A stretch of DNA of 64,000 nt, taken from NCBI RefSeq assembly GCF_004341165.1, contig NZ_SLZR01000004.1:62001-126000 (forward strand), given 5' to 3'. Shown here piece by piece: positions 35,311 to 44,419 of the stretch. The first letter of the stretch is position 1. Each line of letters opens with the position of its first letter. This stretch comes from Reinekea marinisedimentorum. Lineage in GTDB: Bacteria > Pseudomonadota > Gammaproteobacteria > Pseudomonadales > Natronospirillaceae. The position numbers and the translations under genes were made by a program. The notes under the pieces are model-generated. The model worked only from the letters and a program-made list of their open reading frames with translations, did no database searches and was not told the origin of the DNA.

Positions 35311-35439
35311 TTCGCCGGGCGGCGATGCCTGCCACCTACCCTTTCTACCAGTGCACGATATTTTCAAACCTCAGACAACCATTTCATTTTGACCTGCTAA
35401 CCTGTATTTTAAGTGCAACGCATACAGGACCTTCTAAAA

Positions 35440-36816
35440 ATGGACAGCGTTTTTACGAGCGATACCGAGCAAGCCGCCTGCCCGATGGCCAGCGTTGATC
35501 ACGCCTGGCTAAGAATGGATACACCGGTCAACCCAATGGTCATTAACGCGGTGATCAGTTTTAAACAACCGCTCAACACTGAAGACTGCATCCAACAAAT
35601 CACCAGCCAGCTACTTTCTAATAAAATCTTTCGCTCCAAGCCGGGTTCTTCGATATACGGAGCGCAATGGCAACAAACGAAGGTCGACGAAAGTTACCAT
35701 TTTTCGATTTGTCATCAACGCCTGAAGGATGACCAGGCACTGCAGGCACAGGCGACCGATTTCATCAATCAACCTCTGGATCACAACCGCCCATTATGGC
35801 GCGTATTGCTCGTCCCCCACTGTAAATCGGGTGGCGCGCTTGTGGTTCGTATCCATCATGCCTATGCCGACGGCATGGCACTGATGAAGGTATTGCTGAA
35901 GCTGATGGATGAGCGTGAATTAATTGAATACTATGAAAAACAACAGACAAGCAAACAAAAGAAGCCTCGTAAAAACAGAACCGTAGCGCTGTTTTCCAAA
36001 CTGCAAAACTACATGCCCGGCAATGGCAAATGGCTGGAAGCTCTCGGCCTTGTCGATGAACTCACGACCGAGCTGCTGAAACTGGGGCTCAGCCCGGGCG
36101 AAGAAAACGCCTTCAAAAAACCGGGCTTGTGCGGCAAAAAACAACTGGTGTGGACCAAGCCGTTAAACCTCGACGAAGTTAAAACCATTGCAAAATTTCA
36201 GCATGCCAAAGTCAATGATGTTCTGCTCAATTCAGTTTCCGGCGCATTCCGACGCTATCTGAAATCGATTGATCAACTCTCCGCCTGGTCCGAGATGAAG
36301 GCGGTAATCCCAGTGGATTTGCGTCAGCATGTAAATGCCAGGGAACTGGGGAATTACTTCGGCCTTGTATTCTTATCGCTGCCTTTGGGAACCGAAGACC
36401 CGATTGAACGCTCCAGGCTGTTGCATAAGCGGATGAACGCCCTGAAAGACAGTAAACAGGCCTGGCTAACCTTCCAGCTACTGCAGCTTGCAGGCTATCT
36501 GCCTGAAATCATTGAAAAGGAACTGATTCAGCTTTTCAGTAGTAAAGGCTCCATGGTAATGACCAATGTTCCGGGGCCGCAATTCCCGCTGCACCTTTCA
36601 GGCAACGAGATTGATCAGATCATGTTTTGGGTGCCGCAATCTGGCAGTATCGGCATTGGCGTAAGCATTCTTACCTACAACAACCATGTTCAGTTTGGTT
36701 TGATGACAGATAAACAAATCATCCCCAACCCGGAAAAGCTGATCGACTTTTTCACCGAAGAATTTGAATCTCTGTTGCTGGAAACGCTAATGACAGTGCA
36801 ATGGCCGAGCGCCTAG
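35440..36816 (+). CDS. Wax ester synthase / acyl-CoA:diacylglycerol acyltransferase (WS/DGAT)
   Basis: The enzyme joins acyl-CoA to a fatty alcohol or diacylglycerol, making wax esters or triacylglycerol at the inner membrane. The 458-residue protein carries the catalytic HHxxxDG motif, HHAYADG at residues 139-145, preceded by PLDHNRPLWRVLLV. NDVLLNSVSGAFRRYL and TNVPGPQFPL also fit the family. I use ATG 35440 (AGGA upstream) rather than the GTG at 35413. A fatty acyl-CoA reductase of the matching pathway lies 1 kb downstream on the other strand. The stop codon lies inside the left end of a CTAGTG repeat element. Confidence 0.9.
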   Translation: MDSVFTSDTEQAACPMASVDHAWLRMDTPVNPMVINAVISFKQPLNTEDCIQQITSQLLSNKIFRSKPGSSIYGAQWQQTKVDESYHFSICHQRLKDDQALQAQATDFINQPLDHNRPLWRVLLVPHCKSGGALVVRIHHAYADGMALMKVLLKLMDERELIEYYEKQQTSKQKKPRKNRTVALFSKLQNYMPGNGKWLEALGLVDELTTELLKLGLSPGEENAFKKPGLCGKKQLVWTKPLNLDEVKTIAKFQHAKVNDVLLNSVSGAFRRYLKSIDQLSAWSEMKAVIPVDLRQHVNARELGNYFGLVFLSLPLGTEDPIERSRLLHKRMNALKDSKQAWLTFQLLQLAGYLPEIIEKELIQLFSSKGSMVMTNVPGPQFPLHLSGNEIDQIMFWVPQSGSIGIGVSILTYNNHVQFGLMTDKQIIPNPEKLIDFFTEEFESLLLETLMTVQWPSA

Positions 36817-36860
36817 TGGGCTGTGCGTAAAGTTCGGTAACTGTTCGCACGGCCCACTAG
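36813..36860. repeat. CTAGTG-bounded palindromic element, copy 1 (48 bp)
   Basis: The arms CTAGTGGGCTGTGCG (36813-36827) and its near-perfect complement CGCACGGCCCACTAG (36846-36860) enclose TAAAGTTCGGTAACTGTT. CTAG sits at each end. The left CTAG contains the TAG stop of the wax ester synthase. Related copies lie at 41919 and 44368. Confidence 0.75.
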
Positions 36861-36868
36861 CTTCATAG

Positions 36869-37762
36869 CTACAGATCACCGGCTTTTATTTGATTGCACA
36901 ACAGCTCATGCGCGGTAGTGTTCAGGGTTGCACTCATGTGCCCACGCGCATTGATTGCCAGGCCTGGGCGGTCTATCAATGATAACGACGGCGGTATGAC
37001 GATGGTATCGTGCGTAGAGTGCAGATAGAAAGTTACGGTTTTGCTGCCATCGTCTCGTGCGTTCAGGTCTTTTAACCATTGGCTGCCGGGTGACATTTGT
37101 GCTGCATTTTCAGAATGCGTCATAAGGTGATAAAGCCTGGCAAGCTGTGTACCCTGATAAGGCGTATTCACTGAATAATGCCGAATCGCCTCTTCGCCGC
37201 TATCCGCCAGATAGGCTCTCGCCGCAAGGCCGCCCATACTGAAAGAGACCAAAACCAATTCCACCTCTTTATTAAGCGCCCTTACTCGCGCCACTTCGTC
37301 AGCAATCTGTGCTGCATAATCGTCGATCGAACCAAAAGGATGTTCAAACTCAACGTAACTGAAGGAAATGCCGTTTGCGGCCAACTGCTTTTCAAAGAAG
37401 TGCCAGAAGCCGTTATTGCACATAAAGCCATGCAGCAGAATGACATGCTGCCCTGCAACCTTATGACGATCTGAATTCCCCGGGTGCGCCTTCAGCTGAT
37501 ACCAGGCATACAGCAGTGTAAAACTATAGAACTCGGTCCAGCAGTAAACGACTAATGCCCGCAGCGTCATCCGGTAGTCTTTTTGCGTAAAGGCAACATA
37601 AAGGCAAACGCTGGTAATAACCACAAAGCGAATGGCCAGCATACCCCCCAATGCCAAAAACACCCCCGAGACAAAACCCGCCACGGTTAAAAGACTGACA
37701 AGATACAGCAGGGAAAACTCTGCCAGATGCCAGATTCTGATCAGGGAGCGAACGGTCATCAT
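36869..37762 (-). CDS. Membrane-anchored alpha/beta hydrolase (lipase-like)
   Basis: The 297-residue protein has two or three hydrophobic segments in residues 15-75, then an alpha/beta hydrolase domain. That domain starts at VILLHGFMCNNGFWHFF with the oxyanion-type HGF. The nucleophile is Ser in VSFSMGGLAAR near residue 173, STHDTIVIPP holds the likely acid, and ARGHMS the His. The gene lies 3 nt from the fatty acyl-CoA reductase on the same strand, so the two are co-transcribed. A role in hydrolysing or remodelling stored lipid esters is plausible but not shown. Triacylglycerol lipase or esterase are the alternatives. Confidence 0.72.
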   Translation of the reverse strand: MMTVRSLIRIWHLAEFSLLYLVSLLTVAGFVSGVFLALGGMLAIRFVVITSVCLYVAFTQKDYRMTLRALVVYCWTEFYSFTLLYAWYQLKAHPGNSDRHKVAGQHVILLHGFMCNNGFWHFFEKQLAANGISFSYVEFEHPFGSIDDYAAQIADEVARVRALNKEVELVLVSFSMGGLAARAYLADSGEEAIRHYSVNTPYQGTQLARLYHLMTHSENAAQMSPGSQWLKDLNARDDGSKTVTFYLHSTHDTIVIPPSLSLIDRPGLAINARGHMSATLNTTAHELLCNQIKAGDL

Positions 37763-37765
37763 TGC

Positions 37766-39781
37766 TTACCAGTGAACACCTTTCATTAGCGATGCAAACA
37801 TGAGCTGAGCCGGTGAAGGTTGCGGCGCTTTGGCTTTTTCGCCGGAACCATCCTGCTTTTTACCTTTATCTGCCTCTTTAAACAGGCGGAAAGCGGTATT
37901 CATAATCTGCCGCTGAGTTTTAGGTGACAGCGCATGCACAACCTCTGCAAACTTACCAAGCCGGGTCGAAACCCGCTCACTGCGCTTCAGCACCGCCTCG
38001 ACCACCAGTTCTGCGGCCTCTTCCGGCGTCAGGGCGGGCACATTGTTATACAGCGCGGTGGGTGCAATCATCGGCGTACGCACCAGCGGCATATTTATAT
38101 TGGTGAAGTGGACCTTATGATCGGCCAGTTCTGCAGCGGCACAACGGGAAAACGCCTCAAGCGCAGCTTTCGAGCCAACATAGGCAGAAAACCTAGGTGC
38201 ATTACTGAGCACACCGATCGAAGAGATATTTATGACGTGTCCGCCACCCCGCTCTTCCATAAGCGGAATGCTTTTCAACACCATAGAGACCGCGGCAAGA
38301 TAATTCAGCTGAATAGTCCGTTCGAAATCATGCAGACGCTCCAAAGACTCGGTAACCGGTCTTCTGATCGAGTGACCGGCATTATTAATCAAGTAATCAA
38401 CGCCTCCCAATTGCGCCTTGATGGAAGAGAACAGGTTATCGACATCCTGTTGCTGGGTAATATCGGCCACGTAGCTGTATACCCGGCCACCGGCTTTTTC
38501 AATTTCTGCATGAGCGGCCTGCAGTTTTTCCGGATCCCGCGCGCAGATAATCACCACGGCACCGACCTGTGAAAGCCGCTTTGCCGTGGCTTTACCAATT
38601 CCGGATGAACCACCAGTGATAAGAACAACCTTGTGGTTCAGTCGGTCTTCCAGCGTTTTTTCGGTAAACAGTGCTGCATCCAGATTACGTTCCCAATAAT
38701 CCCATAAGGCGGGCGCGTAGGTTTCCAGATCCGGAACGAAGATGCCGGCCTTTTCCAGCAGTTGCTCAGCCTTGCGGTTATCGTACTGGGTTGGCCAGTT
38801 GATGAACCGGAACAGGTCTTTGGGAATGCCCATACTTTCAAGCAGGTCATCCACAATCTCCTTAACCCCTGGAATCGCGGTTAAGTTCTTCCGCAGCATA
38901 ATGGGGACCAGCTCGACCAGGCGGGCGTTGATCCTTACATCAAACTCCGGGGAATGAGCAGAACGCGCAAACAGATTTAACAGCTGACCAAAGCGCCAGT
39001 GCTTTTTATCGGTCAGGTGGAAGGCTTGGCCGTCCTGATCCGGCTCAAAGGCCAGCTGGCTTATTGCATTCACAACGAAATCGACGGGTACCAGGTTAAA
39101 ATAGCCGCCCTCAAGCCCCAGCAAAGGAAACCAGGGAGGAAGCGCCTGACGAATACTTTTCAGCATATTGAACAGGTAGTACGGGCCATCGACCTTATCC
39201 ATCTCGCCGGTTTTAGAATCACCCACAACAAAGCTTGGGCGGTAAATCCGATAGGCAAAATCTGTTTGATCACGAACAATACGCTCGGATTCATGCTTGG
39301 TTGAAAAATATGGATGGTCCAAACCGGTTGCTTCGGTAAACATATCTTCGCGGAACACACCCGGGTAAAAACCTGCCGCTGCAATCGAGCTCATCAAATG
39401 AAAGGTTTTCACCCCAATCTCACGTGCAAATTCAACCGCGTATTGGCTTCCCTGTACGTTCACTGCGTACTGCGAATCTCGGTCCGCTTTTAAATCGTAT
39501 ATCGCTCCAAGGTGAAAAAAGTGATCAACACTACCGGCCATTTGTGCTTTTGCTTCTTCACTGACACCCAGTGCCGGTTCACTTAAATCACCCTGGATAA
39601 ACTTAACCTTGTCGCGCAGGTGTTCATTGGTTACCGTTTTTTGCAGAACCTTATCGGCTTTTTGCAGCGAAGCTGGCCGAACCAGGATATAGAGGGTGTG
39701 AATTTCAGGGCGAGACTCTAATAAACGTGCAACAAGGCGGCGGCCGATAAAGCCGGTACCGCCAGTAATAAACACCTGCAT
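37766..39781 (-). CDS. Two-domain fatty acyl-CoA reductase, alcohol-forming (Marinobacter FAR type)
   Basis: The 671-residue enzyme reduces acyl-CoA or fatty aldehyde to fatty alcohol with NADPH, feeding wax ester synthesis. The N-terminal extended-SDR domain has ITGGTGFIGRRL (residues 5-16), SSIAAAGFYPGVFREDMF and YFSTK (158-162). The C-terminal classical SDR domain has ITGGSSGIGKAT (388-399), NNAGHSIRR, NISSIGVLSNAPRFSAY and the YVGSK site (534-538). The two-domain layout, total length and many shared strings match the characterised Marinobacter enzyme Maqu_2220 as I recall it. AAGGA lies 7 nt before the ATG. A palindrome shared with the tetR/phasin region lies 65 bp upstream. Confidence 0.9.
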   Translation of the reverse strand: MQVFITGGTGFIGRRLVARLLESRPEIHTLYILVRPASLQKADKVLQKTVTNEHLRDKVKFIQGDLSEPALGVSEEAKAQMAGSVDHFFHLGAIYDLKADRDSQYAVNVQGSQYAVEFAREIGVKTFHLMSSIAAAGFYPGVFREDMFTEATGLDHPYFSTKHESERIVRDQTDFAYRIYRPSFVVGDSKTGEMDKVDGPYYLFNMLKSIRQALPPWFPLLGLEGGYFNLVPVDFVVNAISQLAFEPDQDGQAFHLTDKKHWRFGQLLNLFARSAHSPEFDVRINARLVELVPIMLRKNLTAIPGVKEIVDDLLESMGIPKDLFRFINWPTQYDNRKAEQLLEKAGIFVPDLETYAPALWDYWERNLDAALFTEKTLEDRLNHKVVLITGGSSGIGKATAKRLSQVGAVVIICARDPEKLQAAHAEIEKAGGRVYSYVADITQQQDVDNLFSSIKAQLGGVDYLINNAGHSIRRPVTESLERLHDFERTIQLNYLAAVSMVLKSIPLMEERGGGHVINISSIGVLSNAPRFSAYVGSKAALEAFSRCAAAELADHKVHFTNINMPLVRTPMIAPTALYNNVPALTPEEAAELVVEAVLKRSERVSTRLGKFAEVVHALSPKTQRQIMNTAFRLFKEADKGKKQDGSGEKAKAPQPSPAQLMFASLMKGVHW

Positions 39782-39845
39782 ATAACTATCCTTATTTAAT
39801 CAGTTTTATTTATATTGATTAAAAGCTAGTACCAGACAAAATAAG

Positions 39846-39858
39846 AGTCAATTTGACA
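39846..39858. promoter_or_regulatory. Putative operator, FAR promoter region
   Basis: The minus-strand reading TGTCAAATTGACT is an 11-bp palindrome (GTCAA-A-TTGAC) and contains a TTGACT -35-like hexamer facing the reductase gene. It differs by one base from the 13-bp core at 43954-43966. It lies 65 bp from the reductase start and 44 bp from the divergent FFLEELY gene. Confidence 0.5.
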
Positions 39859-39901
39859 ATGACAATATGGCATCAATTACATTGCTTTGAGCACAATCTA
39901 C

Positions 39902-40600
39902 ATGAGAAAAACGAGTAAACAGTTCGAAAAGGCGATCCACAATCACCTTTCCGATATTCAGAACATCAGGATCACGCCAACGTTCAGGCAACTGCAACGC
40001 TGGCAGTCTGAGCGCCTGTTTGACACCCATCGTGAGCTCTATCAGCAACCTAAATTTCAGCCGGCGATGCGCTTTTTTTCTGAGGAGCTGTACGGTACCG
40101 AGCACTTCATGCAACGCAATAATGAGTTGATAAAAGCACTGCCACTCATGTGCCGGACGATGCCCGCGCAAATTTTACGGATTGTCGAAAACGCCGCTCT
40201 GTTGCAGCGGGTCAGCCTGCAGCTGGATGCGCAACTGCTCACCCACCTGCCCGCCGGTATTTCAATAGAACATTTAACGCTGCAGCAATGGGTACAGGCT
40301 TATGCCCAATGCGACAACAGGCCGCAAAGGCAGCAGCAGCTGGATTTAATTGAAAGTATCGGTAATGACCTGGCCGCCATCATTCACATCCCCATGATTA
40401 CCGCATTGCTAAATTGGGCTGAAAAACCGGCAAAACTGGCGGGTTACGGGGAGATACACCACTTCGTCATTACCGGTTTCAGGGCATTTAAACGGCTGAA
40501 AAACCCACAGGATTTTCTGCAGCCGGTTATCAGCAAAGAACGGCAACTCTCCGGCCAGTGGTTTGCTCAGGCTTCATCCAGCTCTTTGCGCGCCAGGTAA
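39902..40600 (+). CDS. FFLEELY-motif-like hypothetical protein
   Basis: The 232-residue soluble, largely helical protein contains RFFSEELYGTEHF near residue 60, a variant of the conserved FFLEELYG motif after which a family of uncharacterised proteobacterial proteins is named. No catalytic motif is visible. I use ATG 39902; a TTG at 39887 would add five residues. It is divergent from the fatty acyl-CoA reductase and shares its putative operator region. Its last 34 bases overlap the 3' end of the convergent TPR gene. A link to storage-lipid metabolism is suggested by position only. Confidence 0.65.
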   Translation: MRKTSKQFEKAIHNHLSDIQNIRITPTFRQLQRWQSERLFDTHRELYQQPKFQPAMRFFSEELYGTEHFMQRNNELIKALPLMCRTMPAQILRIVENAALLQRVSLQLDAQLLTHLPAGISIEHLTLQQWVQAYAQCDNRPQRQQQLDLIESIGNDLAAIIHIPMITALLNWAEKPAKLAGYGEIHHFVITGFRAFKRLKNPQDFLQPVISKERQLSGQWFAQASSSSLRAR

Positions 40601-41346
40601 TAATCCATCGCTTCGAGTGCATCTATCGGCGTGTTTTCGGTGGCCCGCTGATACAGGTTGACCGCATCCTTTAAGCGTTTTTTGCCAAACATTTTTAGCA
40701 GGCCGTCAGCAAATTCAGTTATGGCGCTCACCGAATAAGGTGCCAGCTCGATGGCTTTCTGGTAATGCCCGAGCGCGTCATCGGCAGAGGACGAATAGGT
40801 CAATTTTGCGGCCATTTTTCCAAGCTTACCGATGATCTCTGCCTGATAGGTACCCAGCGAGGTATGGGCATCGGCATGATCGGGCTCCAGCTGCAGGCAC
40901 TCTTTAATCGCATGCTGAACCTTACCGGCTAACCCTTCTGCCAATGCCTTGGTAATTGAAATAAATTGTCCGTATCGCCCTAATGCATAGGCCAGCTGGT
41001 AATACAGGTTAGCCCTGCTCTCCTGCTCCTCGCGCAGCGCTGTTTCTGCCTGTTGTGCACAGGCTTTCAGGCTTTCTGTCTTCTTTTCCGCATCCGCTTC
41101 CAGGTAATAGGCATAGGTTGCGCTGGCTTTCAGGTAAAGGCTGGCGCCACCAGGCAGAACTTTGGCTTTTTCTGCACTCTGCAGATATTCACCATTGTGA
41201 AACAGCAGCCAGGCCGCCAGCAGATCTTCATCTTTTGGCCGCGCTTCACAGTCTCCGGCGTGCAGACGGCCCCATTGCTCTTTCATGGATTCCATCGTCA
41301 GTGGGGTGAATAGAGGCTTGATATCTTCAAAATTGATCTGAGTCAT
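40567..41346 (-). CDS. TPR-repeat protein, uncharacterised
   Basis: The 259-residue protein has no signal peptide. Several helical pairs fit tetratricopeptide repeats: ANLYYQLAYALGRYGQFISI, ADAHTSLGTYQAEI, ALGHYQKAIELAPYSVSAITEFADGL and RLKDAVNLYQRATENTP. TPRs mediate protein contacts, so it may be a scaffold. The C-terminal 11 codons overlap the convergent FFLEELY gene. It is divergent from phasin gene 1, with an 8-bp inverted repeat (TCCTGATT 41346-41353 / AATCAGGA 41390-41397) between the two. Confidence 0.7.
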   Translation of the reverse strand: MTQINFEDIKPLFTPLTMESMKEQWGRLHAGDCEARPKDEDLLAAWLLFHNGEYLQSAEKAKVLPGGASLYLKASATYAYYLEADAEKKTESLKACAQQAETALREEQESRANLYYQLAYALGRYGQFISITKALAEGLAGKVQHAIKECLQLEPDHADAHTSLGTYQAEIIGKLGKMAAKLTYSSSADDALGHYQKAIELAPYSVSAITEFADGLLKMFGKKRLKDAVNLYQRATENTPIDALEAMDYYLARKELDEA

Positions 41347-41449
41347 CCTGATTTCCCTAATAAAGCCGGATTAGTGTGTTTACTCTAATAATCAGGAATA
41401 GATTAAAGATGTAGCCCGGTCAAGCGGCTCTCATACAGGAGACAACATC

Positions 41450-41905
41450 ATGTCAAAACTATCTAAAAACAAACTTACCGTTGCAACACAGACAACGAAA
41501 GATACCGCTCGTCAGATGTGGATGGCAGGTTTAGGTGCCTTTGTAAAAACCGGTCAGGAAGGCGGTCGACTGTTCTCCAGCCTGGTGGAAGAAGGCGAAC
41601 AGTTTCAGGAAAAAGTATCCAACAAAGCCACTGATCAGGTGAATGGCACTGTCGATTCGGTAATGACTCAGGCCTCTGGCCAATGGGATAAGCTGGAAGC
41701 AATTCTGGAAGATCGCGTCATTAAAGTACTGGATAAACTCGGTGTACCAACAAAAGACGATGTATCTGAACTGATCGAGAAAATCGACAAGCTTCAGGCT
41801 GCGGTCGATGGTACTGCAAAGAAAGCACCGGCCACCCGTGCTAAAAAACCAGCAGCGCCTAAAGCAGTAGCCGAAGAAAAAGCAGCGGAAGCAAAAGCTG
41901 AATAA
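41450..41905 (+). CDS. Phasin-like granule-associated protein 1
   Basis: The 151-residue protein contains RQMWMAGLGAFVKTGQEGGRLFSSLVEEGEQFQEK (residues 21-55), the core of the PhaI/PhaF type phasin family, followed by amphipathic helices and KLGVPTKDDVSELIEKIDKLQ. The C-terminal 25 residues are a Lys/Ala/Pro-rich tail (KKAPATRAKKPAAPKA) like a shortened PhaF histone-like tail. Phasins coat polyester granules. No PHA synthase is in the window, and the neighbours make wax esters, so the granule could be either. AGGAGA lies 8 nt upstream of the ATG. Confidence 0.82.
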   Translation: MSKLSKNKLTVATQTTKDTARQMWMAGLGAFVKTGQEGGRLFSSLVEEGEQFQEKVSNKATDQVNGTVDSVMTQASGQWDKLEAILEDRVIKVLDKLGVPTKDDVSELIEKIDKLQAAVDGTAKKAPATRAKKPAAPKAVAEEKAAEAKAE

Positions 41906-41918
41906 AAACTGCCACCAC

Positions 41919-42082
41919 CTAGTGGCGCATGTGCAAAATAAGGTCACTGTTGGCTTCGCAGTTCGATGGGTCTCAGCGTTGGTAAAGCTTGAAAGAGCAC
42001 CACTATTCCAACGCTTTACCGCCTTAAACTCCATTGAACTGCAGCGCTCCTTAGAGACCGAATTTCCCGCATGAGGCACTAG
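41919..42082. repeat. CTAGTG-bounded structured element, copy 2 (164 bp)
   Basis: CTAGTGGCGCATG at the left pairs imperfectly with CATGAGGCACTAG at the right. Internally, several nested inverted repeats occur: GCAGTTCGATGG with CCATTGAACTGC, GGTCTC with GAGACC, AGCGTTGG with CCAACGCT, and GGTAAAGC with GCTTTACC. The copy ends 5 nt before the GGAGG ribosome site of the patatin gene and probably forms a complex structure in the leader RNA. Confidence 0.65.
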
Positions 42083-42097
42083 TGAAGGAGGTGTGTG

Positions 42098-43291
42098 ATG
42101 GTTAATCATAAAAAAACGATCGCCCTAGCGTTAGCCGGTGGTGGTCCGCTCGGAGGGCTCTATGAACTTGGAGCCCTTATGGCAATTCAACAGGCCTTAC
42201 CAACATTAAAACTGCATCAGTTACCGATGTATGTTGGCGTCAGTGCGGGTTCTGTCATTGCATCAGCACTGGCCAACAACTTTGCCATCAATGACATTGC
42301 AAAAAATTTGTTGCGGCCACAGGTTGCTGACCACCCTATTCATCCCTCCCTGTTTTATAAACCGGCATGGAAGGAGTATATGGCGCGCCTTTCTCGTTTA
42401 CCGGCGCTAAGCCTGGAAGCCGTCAGCGACTATTTTGTTCAGCCGGATGATGAAACCCTACTGGAAAGCTTTACCCGACTGAAAAGGCTGCTGCCTTCCG
42501 GTTTTTTCAACAATCAGCCCATTGAGCAATACTTACGAAACCTGTTTGAGCAACAGGGTGTGAGCAATGATTTCCGGCAACTGAATTCCCGGTTAATGGT
42601 AGTTGCGGCCGATCTGGATAAGGGCAACTCGGTTGTTTTTGGCCAGCATGGCTGGGATGACGTCCCGATTTCAGTCGCGGTACAGGCCTCAACCGCCGTG
42701 CCTGGGCTTTATCTACCGGTTAAAATTCACGACCGTTATTTTGTTGATGGCGTCCTCTACAAAACCGTACACGCCTCAGCCGCCATAGATGCCGGTGCCG
42801 ATTTGGTTATCTGCATTAACCCGGTAGTGCCCTATGAGAACAACAACTTCGACGACACTCGGGCAGAGCAAACGTCGATTAAAAACGAAGGCAGTATCGG
42901 CATTATCAGCCAGGCATTACGAGCACTGGTTCATTCGAGATCTACCACCGGTTTCCGGCAGTACGATTCAGATTACCCGGATAAGGACATTCTGCTGTTT
43001 GAACCCAGCCCTACCGATGCCGAATGGTTCTTCACCAACGAGTTCAGCTTTAAAAACCGCAGCAGTCTGGTGGAAAAAGCCTACAAGGCGACGCTTCAGG
43101 ATTTAGCGGGTCGCAGAGAAGCCCTGAATGAAGTACTAGCGGGTTATCGATTAGAAATAACCGAAGAGAGCCTGGTTCCGAACAACCGGGAGATTCTCGA
43201 ATGCAGAAAACGACGCAGGAAGCTGAGCCCACATATGCTTCAACTGCGAAAATCTCTCAACAAGCTGGAGCAACAGCTCGAAGAGCCTTAA
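42098..43291 (+). CDS. Patatin-like phospholipase
   Basis: The 397-residue protein has the patatin Ser-Asp dyad layout: LALAGGGPLGGLYELGAL (oxyanion hole, residues 10-27), YVGVSAGSVIAS with the GxSxG nucleophile near residue 51, and RYFVDGVLYKT with the DG Asp near 214. No signal peptide is seen. It probably hydrolyses acyl esters of phospholipid or neutral lipid. ATG 42098 has GGAGG 6 nt upstream; the longer frame uses a GTG 3 nt earlier. It lies between phasin 1 and the convergent TetR gene. A PHA/lipid-granule-linked role is inference; related patatin genes occur next to phasins. Confidence 0.88.
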   Translation: MVNHKKTIALALAGGGPLGGLYELGALMAIQQALPTLKLHQLPMYVGVSAGSVIASALANNFAINDIAKNLLRPQVADHPIHPSLFYKPAWKEYMARLSRLPALSLEAVSDYFVQPDDETLLESFTRLKRLLPSGFFNNQPIEQYLRNLFEQQGVSNDFRQLNSRLMVVAADLDKGNSVVFGQHGWDDVPISVAVQASTAVPGLYLPVKIHDRYFVDGVLYKTVHASAAIDAGADLVICINPVVPYENNNFDDTRAEQTSIKNEGSIGIISQALRALVHSRSTTGFRQYDSDYPDKDILLFEPSPTDAEWFFTNEFSFKNRSSLVEKAYKATLQDLAGRREALNEVLAGYRLEITEESLVPNNREILECRKRRRKLSPHMLQLRKSLNKLEQQLEEP

Positions 43292-43300
43292 GCCCTTCTG

Positions 43301-43912
43301 TTATGCCAGCTTCATCAGTTGTTCAACCTGCAGCTGATCACTGGCGCGCAGGTATGGCAGTATTAACCCCAATATTTGCGTCAGGGCGGCCTGTTCTGCG
43401 TTTGATTTCAACCTTCCGGCTGGCAACAGCCGGCTGAAATCCTGCCAGAAAAAGGCTATGAAGGTTACCTGCCGAGCCAGGCGCTCGGTATCACCCCGTG
43501 TCGCCACCATCACCCCCTGCATTTTCAGGCGGCTGAACACCCCTTTCTGATGCTCTTCCACACTGGCAGTGACCTGCTGCATCAGAAACCGGACGTGCTC
43601 AATGTGCTCAACCAGATAATTCTGATTCAAAAAAATAAAGCGATAGCTTTCTGCCAATGCAAACCACCGCAGCCACCAGCTGACCCAATCGTCCAACGTT
43701 ATTTGCTCAGGCATCGTTAACAGCGGGTCGAGCCGTTGCTGAAACCTTTTTAACAGCTGAACAATCATTTCATCTTTATTTTTATAGTGGTAGTAAAGGT
43801 TGCCAACGCTTATATCAGCACCATCAGCAATGCCATTGGTCGTAACCTTGGCAGGACCAAGTTCATTCAGCTGGTTCAGCGCTTCAACCAGAATGCGTTC
43901 AGAAGTTTTCAC
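43301..43912 (-). CDS. TetR-family regulator, PhaD-like
   Basis: The 203-residue protein has an N-terminal TetR helix-turn-helix: KTSERILVEALNQLNELG, then VTTNGIADGADISVGNLYYHYKNKDEMIVQLLKRFQQRL. The ISxGNLYYH-x3-KxExI pattern and the following DPLL resemble PhaD, the TetR regulator of Pseudomonas pha genes, as I recall it. The C-terminal ligand domain is predicted helical. It is divergent from phasin 2. An ATGTCAAATTGACAT palindrome lies 41 bp from its start, so autoregulation plus control of the phasin and the acyl reductase is likely but untested. Confidence 0.85.
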   Translation of the reverse strand: MKTSERILVEALNQLNELGPAKVTTNGIADGADISVGNLYYHYKNKDEMIVQLLKRFQQRLDPLLTMPEQITLDDWVSWWLRWFALAESYRFIFLNQNYLVEHIEHVRFLMQQVTASVEEHQKGVFSRLKMQGVMVATRGDTERLARQVTFIAFFWQDFSRLLPAGRLKSNAEQAALTQILGLILPYLRASDQLQVEQLMKLA

Positions 43913-43952
43913 TTACGGCCTGCGAGTCGGTGGGTTGTATTTCTATTAAAGC

Positions 43953-43967
43953 ATGTCAAATTGACAT
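43953..43967. promoter_or_regulatory. Putative TetR operator between tetR and phasin 2
   Basis: ATGTCAA-A-TTGACAT is a perfect 15-bp odd-centre palindrome. The right half contains a TTGACA -35 for the rightward phasin gene, and the reverse strand also reads TTGACA toward tetR. Nearly the same sequence lies at 39846-39858 before the fatty acyl-CoA reductase. Confidence 0.6.
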
Positions 43968-44035
43968 TATTAAAATGCAACCTAACTTTATTAGAGGCTT
44001 GGTTAACAATCACATCAGTAAAAACAGGATTAAGT

Positions 44036-44371
44036 ATGAAAAAAGACTCCTTTGCACAGCAGATTTGGTATGCAGGACTGGGTGTTATCGCTCGCGCCGA
44101 ATCGGAAAACACTGAGTGGCTGCAAGACTTCATCAAAGAGGGAGAAAAGTACGAAGAGGCCCGTATAGACGAGCTAAAAGCCAAATTGAGCCAGTTTGAA
44201 GATAAAACCGTTGGCAGCACCAAACGCAAATTTGACGATATTGAAAAAAGCTTTGAATCTAAAGTATCGCAATCACTTTCCAAGGTGGGCTTAATGTCCA
44301 AGTCTGAATTTGAGACGCTGAAAGAAAAGCTCGAGCAACTGGAACAGCAAATTAACGACCTGAAAAGCTAG
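44036..44371 (+). CDS. Phasin-like protein 2
   Basis: The 111-residue protein has QQIWYAGLGVIARAESENTEWLQDFIKEGEKYEE (residues 6-39). It aligns with the phasin 1 core (QMWMAGLGAFVKTG...EEGEQF) and then becomes a helical heptad region ending LEQLEQQINDLKS. The longer frame upstream runs through the promoter and is not used; ATG 44036 has AGGA 8 nt upstream. It lacks the Lys/Pro-rich tail of phasin 1. Its TAG stop falls inside the left CTAG of repeat copy 3. Confidence 0.8.
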   Translation: MKKDSFAQQIWYAGLGVIARAESENTEWLQDFIKEGEKYEEARIDELKAKLSQFEDKTVGSTKRKFDDIEKSFESKVSQSLSKVGLMSKSEFETLKEKLEQLEQQINDLKS

Positions 44372-44419
44372 TGGCGCATGCGCGATGCGAGTGGGCCATG
44401 CGTAAAGTTCGGTCACTAG
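44368..44419. repeat. CTAGTG-bounded element, copy 3 (52 bp)
   Basis: It begins CTAGTGGCGCATGCGC and ends AAAGTTCGGTCACTAG. The internal GTGGGCCATGCGTAAAGTTCGGT matches copy 1 (GTGGGCTGTGCGTAAAGTTCGGT) in 21 of 23 positions. The palindrome GCGCATGCGC is present near the left end. The phasin 2 TAG stop is part of the first CTAG. Confidence 0.7.

Follow-up and report, generated by a model that had tools for sequence, protein, structure and literature searches.

A Reinekea family of small CTAG-bounded elements, very probably an IS630-type MITE with shortened derivatives at stop codons

In the 64,000-nucleotide stretch of Reinekea marinisedimentorum DNA analyzed here (the window), three short elements begin with CTAGTG and end with CACTAG, and two of them start within the stop codon of a gene. 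What these elements are, what could have moved them, and why they lie at stop codons are the questions raised by this locus. The original prediction took them for a new, MITE-like family with a strong choice of insertion site. The elements and the two genes whose ends they occupy are as follows.

36813..36860, minus strand: copy 1, a 48-bp apparent derivative in which the left 15-bp tip is joined to the final 33 bp of the 164-bp unit.
41919..42082, minus strand: copy 2, a full-length 164-bp MITE, diverged, with CTAG at both ends and a long hairpin.
44368..44419, plus strand: copy 3, a 52-bp apparent composite remnant, in which a tip resembling the 22-bp palindrome (CTAGTGGCGCATGCGC) precedes a solo left end of 30 bp.
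35413..36816, plus strand: WS/DGAT gene (467 amino acids), whose TAG stop, within CTAG, holds copy 1.
44036..44371, plus strand: phasin gene (111 amino acids), whose TAG stop, within CTAG, holds copy 3.

All three elements were recovered at these positions with both terminal hexamers in place, and in copies 1 and 3 the leading CTAG does supply the stop codons of the WS/DGAT and phasin genes, respectively. The core common to copies 1 and 3, earlier given as 21 of 23 nt, measured 28 nt at 89%. The CTAGTG hexamer by itself is no commoner in the window than expected (14 occurrences versus 19.7); what speaks against chance is a genome-wide family, described below. Copy 1 folds as a strong hairpin (z, -5.05) and copy 2 folds over its whole length (z, -4.17); copy 3 has no strong hairpin (z, -0.41). 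As a separate observation, the elements are surrounded by storage-lipid genes (window positions 35413 to 44371) encoding WS/DGAT, a fatty acyl reductase-like/SDR fusion, and two phasins, and the same neighborhood also contains genes for a patatin-like phospholipase and a TetR regulator.

The host assembly, a 4.23-Mb draft of 62 contigs, was searched for further copies. The core GCGTAAAGTTCGGTNACT occurs exactly at 11 places, many of which form inverted pairs 122 bp apart, and there are twelve 164-bp copies, of which ten are at 96 to 99% identity, one is at 80%, and window copy 2 is at 75% identity to the main subfamily. The intact 164-bp unit has the makeup of a MITE, being short, noncoding, bounded by the terminal inverted repeats CTAGTGGNCCATGCGNNWARTT, and present in 12 full-length copies in the host. 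The family further comprises solo ends measuring 30 to 55 bp, a set of four palindromes of 22 bp (CTAGTGGCGCATGCGCCACTAG and its variants), and ends that lie at contig edges; at one locus (L033), a copy sits inside the right-hand CTAG of a 22-bp remnant. At L036:1480-1507 (G000:C5, just before 185318), tandem CTAGTGG heptamers lead into an element end, as though insertions had struck there more than once. The proposed family is thus real and multicopy. Within it, copy 2 is the intact unit; copies 1 and 3 have the look of shortened deletion derivatives.

In copy 1, the left 15 bp and the last 33 bp are joined across a common GCG. The same 48-bp layout occurs as one copy per genome in four genomes, including those of Microbulbifer sp. 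HZ11, M. harenosus, and a Lysobacteraceae MAG, and a search of the remaining 292 genomes of the order matched no intact 48-bp form. Because the copies in these four genomes are single, recurrent deletion is likelier than a mobile 48-bp unit, and the 48-bp form was dropped as a mobile class. The CACTAG closing copy 3 had been read as a genuine right end; since it matches positions 27 to 32 of the intact element (GGTCACTAA), which contain an internal CACTA, it is probably a deletion junction instead, and copy 3 would have no true right end. A deletion between the CACTA at positions 27 to 31 and the CACTA of the right end would yield CTAG...GGTCACTAG, the arrangement seen in copy 3 and at L017. 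Five solo ends terminate directly after GGTNACT.

The 164-bp unit is conserved across genera. Copies of equal length, gap-free and 72 to 76% identical, occur in a sister genus; gap-free 164-bp relatives were found in Saccharospirillum, Microbulbifer, and Thioalkalivibrio, and Saccharospirillum sp. M30B14 is among the carriers of the 164-bp element. A pattern scan of public genomes returned at least 111 stretches, nearly all, among the matches listed, from Gammaproteobacteria (Microbulbifer, Thioalkalivibrio, Wenzhouxiangella, Saccharospirillum, Bacterioplanes, Thiodiazotropha, and others); the scan query was the end sequence, and how widely the 164-bp form occurs is read from individually listed loci only. 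Among the matches listed, the commonest spacing of inverted end pairs was exactly 164 bp (26 pairs), followed by 165 bp (5 pairs). No phage record was found with the element. A diverged copy (80%) lies between the type I restriction genes hsdR and hsdS on a conjugative plasmid of Shewanella sp. ANA-3 (NC_008573.1; L239:3001-3123), and this plasmid is a possible vehicle between genera. We also observed, in MAGs that include Competibacteraceae, Chromatiaceae, and Thiohalobacter, a longer noncoding class of 268 to 272 bp that shares the CTAGTGG ends (L134:6488-6759, L142:2753-3020, L144:55-323, L155:252-520, L179:2961-3228, and L206:2998-3266), which looks like two hairpins in tandem, and one 335-bp relative with CTAGTGG ends (L147).

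Do the elements seek out stop codons? Of 60 readings of element ends in the host, 14 terminate an open frame that is 100 codons or longer, compared with 3 of 66 readings of other CTAGs; the tallies use open frames instead of annotated genes, and some of the control CTAGs lie in gene interiors. With two matches judged to be due to chance removed by hand, the figures become 13/58 versus 3/66 (P = 0.006); counted by site, they are 12 of about 33 versus 3 of 33 (P = 0.017). The strong site choice proposed for a MITE is retained, whereas a rule of stop codon targeting gives way to a tendency that covers about one-third of the sites. The simplest reading is that placement at stops reflects the choice of CTAG as a target together with the loss of harmful insertions. 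An insertion at a TAG stop or in intergenic DNA would spare the protein, and surviving copies would gather there; a CTAG target lets a parasite occupy a stop codon without harm to the protein.

The internal hairpin of the 164-bp unit invites a different kind of explanation. Over 28 distinct gap-free copies, compensatory changes are present in 30 of 56 pairs and, for the internal helix 42-57/109-124, which lies beyond the ends shared with the insertion sequence (IS) described below, in 13 of 14 pairs. Covariation was scored at 0.385, compared with 0.150 for shuffled sequences and 0.04 to 0.07 with slid partners. One strand is the more stable in 27 of the 28 copies, by a mean of 14 kcal/mol, although these copies are related to each other; the 268- to 272-bp relatives showed no consistent strand bias. 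The strong covariation, the better folding of one strand, and the frequent position just after stop codons would all suit a cis-acting RNA (a terminator or mRNA-end hairpin) kept for the benefit of the host, with mobility secondary. We consider this unlikely, however, since the stop sites show no orientation preference (14/41 sense and 10/32 antisense), six copies gave no meaningful Rfam match, and copies lie at unrelated genes and are missing at orthologous sites. Moreover, when pairs are chosen in a strand-neutral way, the G-U excess drops to a mild 85 versus 60, which weakens the case for strand-specific RNA selection. Two readings of the hairpin itself remain, namely, that it is kept by selection on the folded strand or that it is kept by template-switch repair matching the palindromes. 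A fixed length of 164 bp and a covarying hairpin across orders are unusual for a MITE and raise the question of what keeps the hairpin. It is possible, though we would not assume it, that the length and the hairpin, maintained by compensatory change across orders, reflect a role of the folded strand and that the 164-bp unit is more than a deletion relic; such a role would be played by RNA in a transcript or by single-stranded DNA in transposition or replication.

If the family is mobile, a transposase with matching ends should exist, and the search for one was successful: elements of 1147 bp share the MITE ends and code for an IS630-family transposase. Among the matches listed, two pairs of ends 1147 bp apart (L153 and L201) flank an open frame of about 365 codons, and the transposase scores 274.7 bits against NF033545 (IS630) and 86.3 bits against PF13358 (DDE_3). 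Its nearest named relatives, on annotated plasmids, are ISPpu2 (about 62%) and IS870 (about 50%). Partial transposase-coding copies with the same ends were found in Microbulbifer variabilis, Bacterioplanes sanyensis, a Solemya symbiont, and others. Matches to NF033545 read in relatives were mostly IS30, IS3, and other transposases. A profile search of the host contigs for an IS630 transposase found no intact gene. Host contigs C15 and C19 end inside one terminus of such an IS and C16 and C36 end inside the other, and the C16/C36 end translates as AKPFKWTKSAEKIIASVERAKKVLPN followed by a stop, which is 73% identical to the transposase C terminus. We attribute the missing middle of the gene to a repeat longer than the assembly could span, with its copies collapsed at contig breaks; because the gene is not whole in the assembly, the putative trans-acting partner in the host is read from contig ends. 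Elements of about 1.15 kb bridging these four contigs would be expected to have the ends CTAGTGGGCCATGCGG. The MITE and the IS have 15 end bases in common and partial identity over the next 14 or so, and with the likeness confined to this stretch, the MITE could instead be moved by another, related transposase.

The target site fits the same transposase family. CTAG is present at both ends in 33 of 45 scored full-length copies, a proportion biased upward in that some loci were fetched by a CTAG-containing pattern. Duplication of CTAG on insertion had been proposed; CTAG at both ends agrees with this, but the duplicated bases are probably the TA within it, as in IS630, for which the title of a 1991 paper by Tenzen and Ohtsubo, cited in PMC2170065 and PMC6811581, gives a preference for TA in CTAG. 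The ends that deviate from CTAG do not all agree: those of L097 (TTAG...CTAA) and L032 (CTAG...CTAA) fit a TA duplication, and those of L040 (TTAG...TTAG) fit a duplication of 4 bp. The latter is what an IS5-type MITE with a 4-bp CTAG/YTAR duplication would give, and MITEPsy1 of Pseudomonas syringae, an element of that kind, is reported to duplicate CTAG or YTAA (PMC3189936). That reading is nevertheless very unlikely to apply here, as the elements with matching ends code for IS630, not IS5, transposases, L097 and L032 are better suited by TA duplication, and the ends of MITEPsy1 (GGAAGGT...) are unrelated.

Empty sites gave one clear case. At the L157 site, a Thioalkalivibrio MAG has one full element beside a remnant, and its sister SH-MAG144 reads CGCGGGCTAGAGCACC, with a single CTAG. 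At the L193 site, one genome has a full 164-bp element and its sister has the 15-bp palindrome CTAGTGGGCCACTAG (L270:1662-1676), possibly a footprint of excision or deletion. At the L196 site, in Microbulbifer, the end of the gene is at an unchanged position in a sister species that lacks the element. Orthologous Microbulbifer sites without the element align at about 70 to 78%, too diverged for the exact bases to be read.

The host also has two Y1_Tnp (PF01797) genes, and the solo ends of about 30 bp are short imperfect palindromes whose inverted pairs resemble BIMEs, yet we give almost no credence to the idea that these ends are REPs moved by a tyrosine (Y1) transposase, because full-length elements with identical ends code for a DDE transposase, the elements have CTAG at both ends while REPs, to our knowledge, carry no target duplication, and no element end was found in the regions retrieved on either side of these Y1 genes (L068, L069, L103, and L104).

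We conclude that the family is very probably an IS630-type MITE, one that would use an ISPpu2/IS870-group transposase in trans, insert at the TA of CTAG, and decay by deletion. According to this model, a DDE transposase of the IS630/Tc1-mariner type, from the IS870/ISPpu2 group, would move the 164-bp unit by cut-and-paste into the TA of a CTAG, which would leave CTAG at both ends. The long palindrome would then decay by internal deletion between short direct repeats to leave remnants of 48, 32, 22, and 15 bp, and copies 1 and 3 of the window would be two such remnants. A small transposon that is widespread among Gammaproteobacteria from marine, soda-lake, and symbiont settings is thereby tied to its transposase group. 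No description of this MITE was found in the papers searched and, as far as those papers go, the family is new as a named one and of a known kind.

Among known systems, the IS870/ISPpu2 group has the same transposase family as the 1147-bp parent, whereas the window elements are noncoding and far shorter. IS870 begins with CTAGTGG and ends with CCACTAG and so has ends of the same CTAGTG...CACTAG type as the window elements; the annotated stop of its transposase is the TAG of its own terminal CTAG, overlapping the target site (L306:1351-1380). CTAGTG...CACTAG ends were seen directly in a Marinobacter IS, the transposase of which is 61% identical. ERIC, at about 127 bp, and RUP, which is linked to an IS630 element, are short, mobile, noncoding palindromic repeats present in many copies, like the 164-bp MITE, and differ from it in host range; the comparison is by description. 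ERIC ranges over enterics and vibrios (PMC10969869). IS630 of Shigella sonnei prefers TA in CTAG, going by the citations of that work in PMC2170065 and PMC6811581; it is autonomous and is likened to the MITE by its CTAG target only. MITEPsy1 is, like the 164-bp MITE, a small MITE found at CTAG but is 100 bp long, has other ends, is thought to derive from the IS ISPsy2, and is itself listed as IS5-like (PMC3189936).
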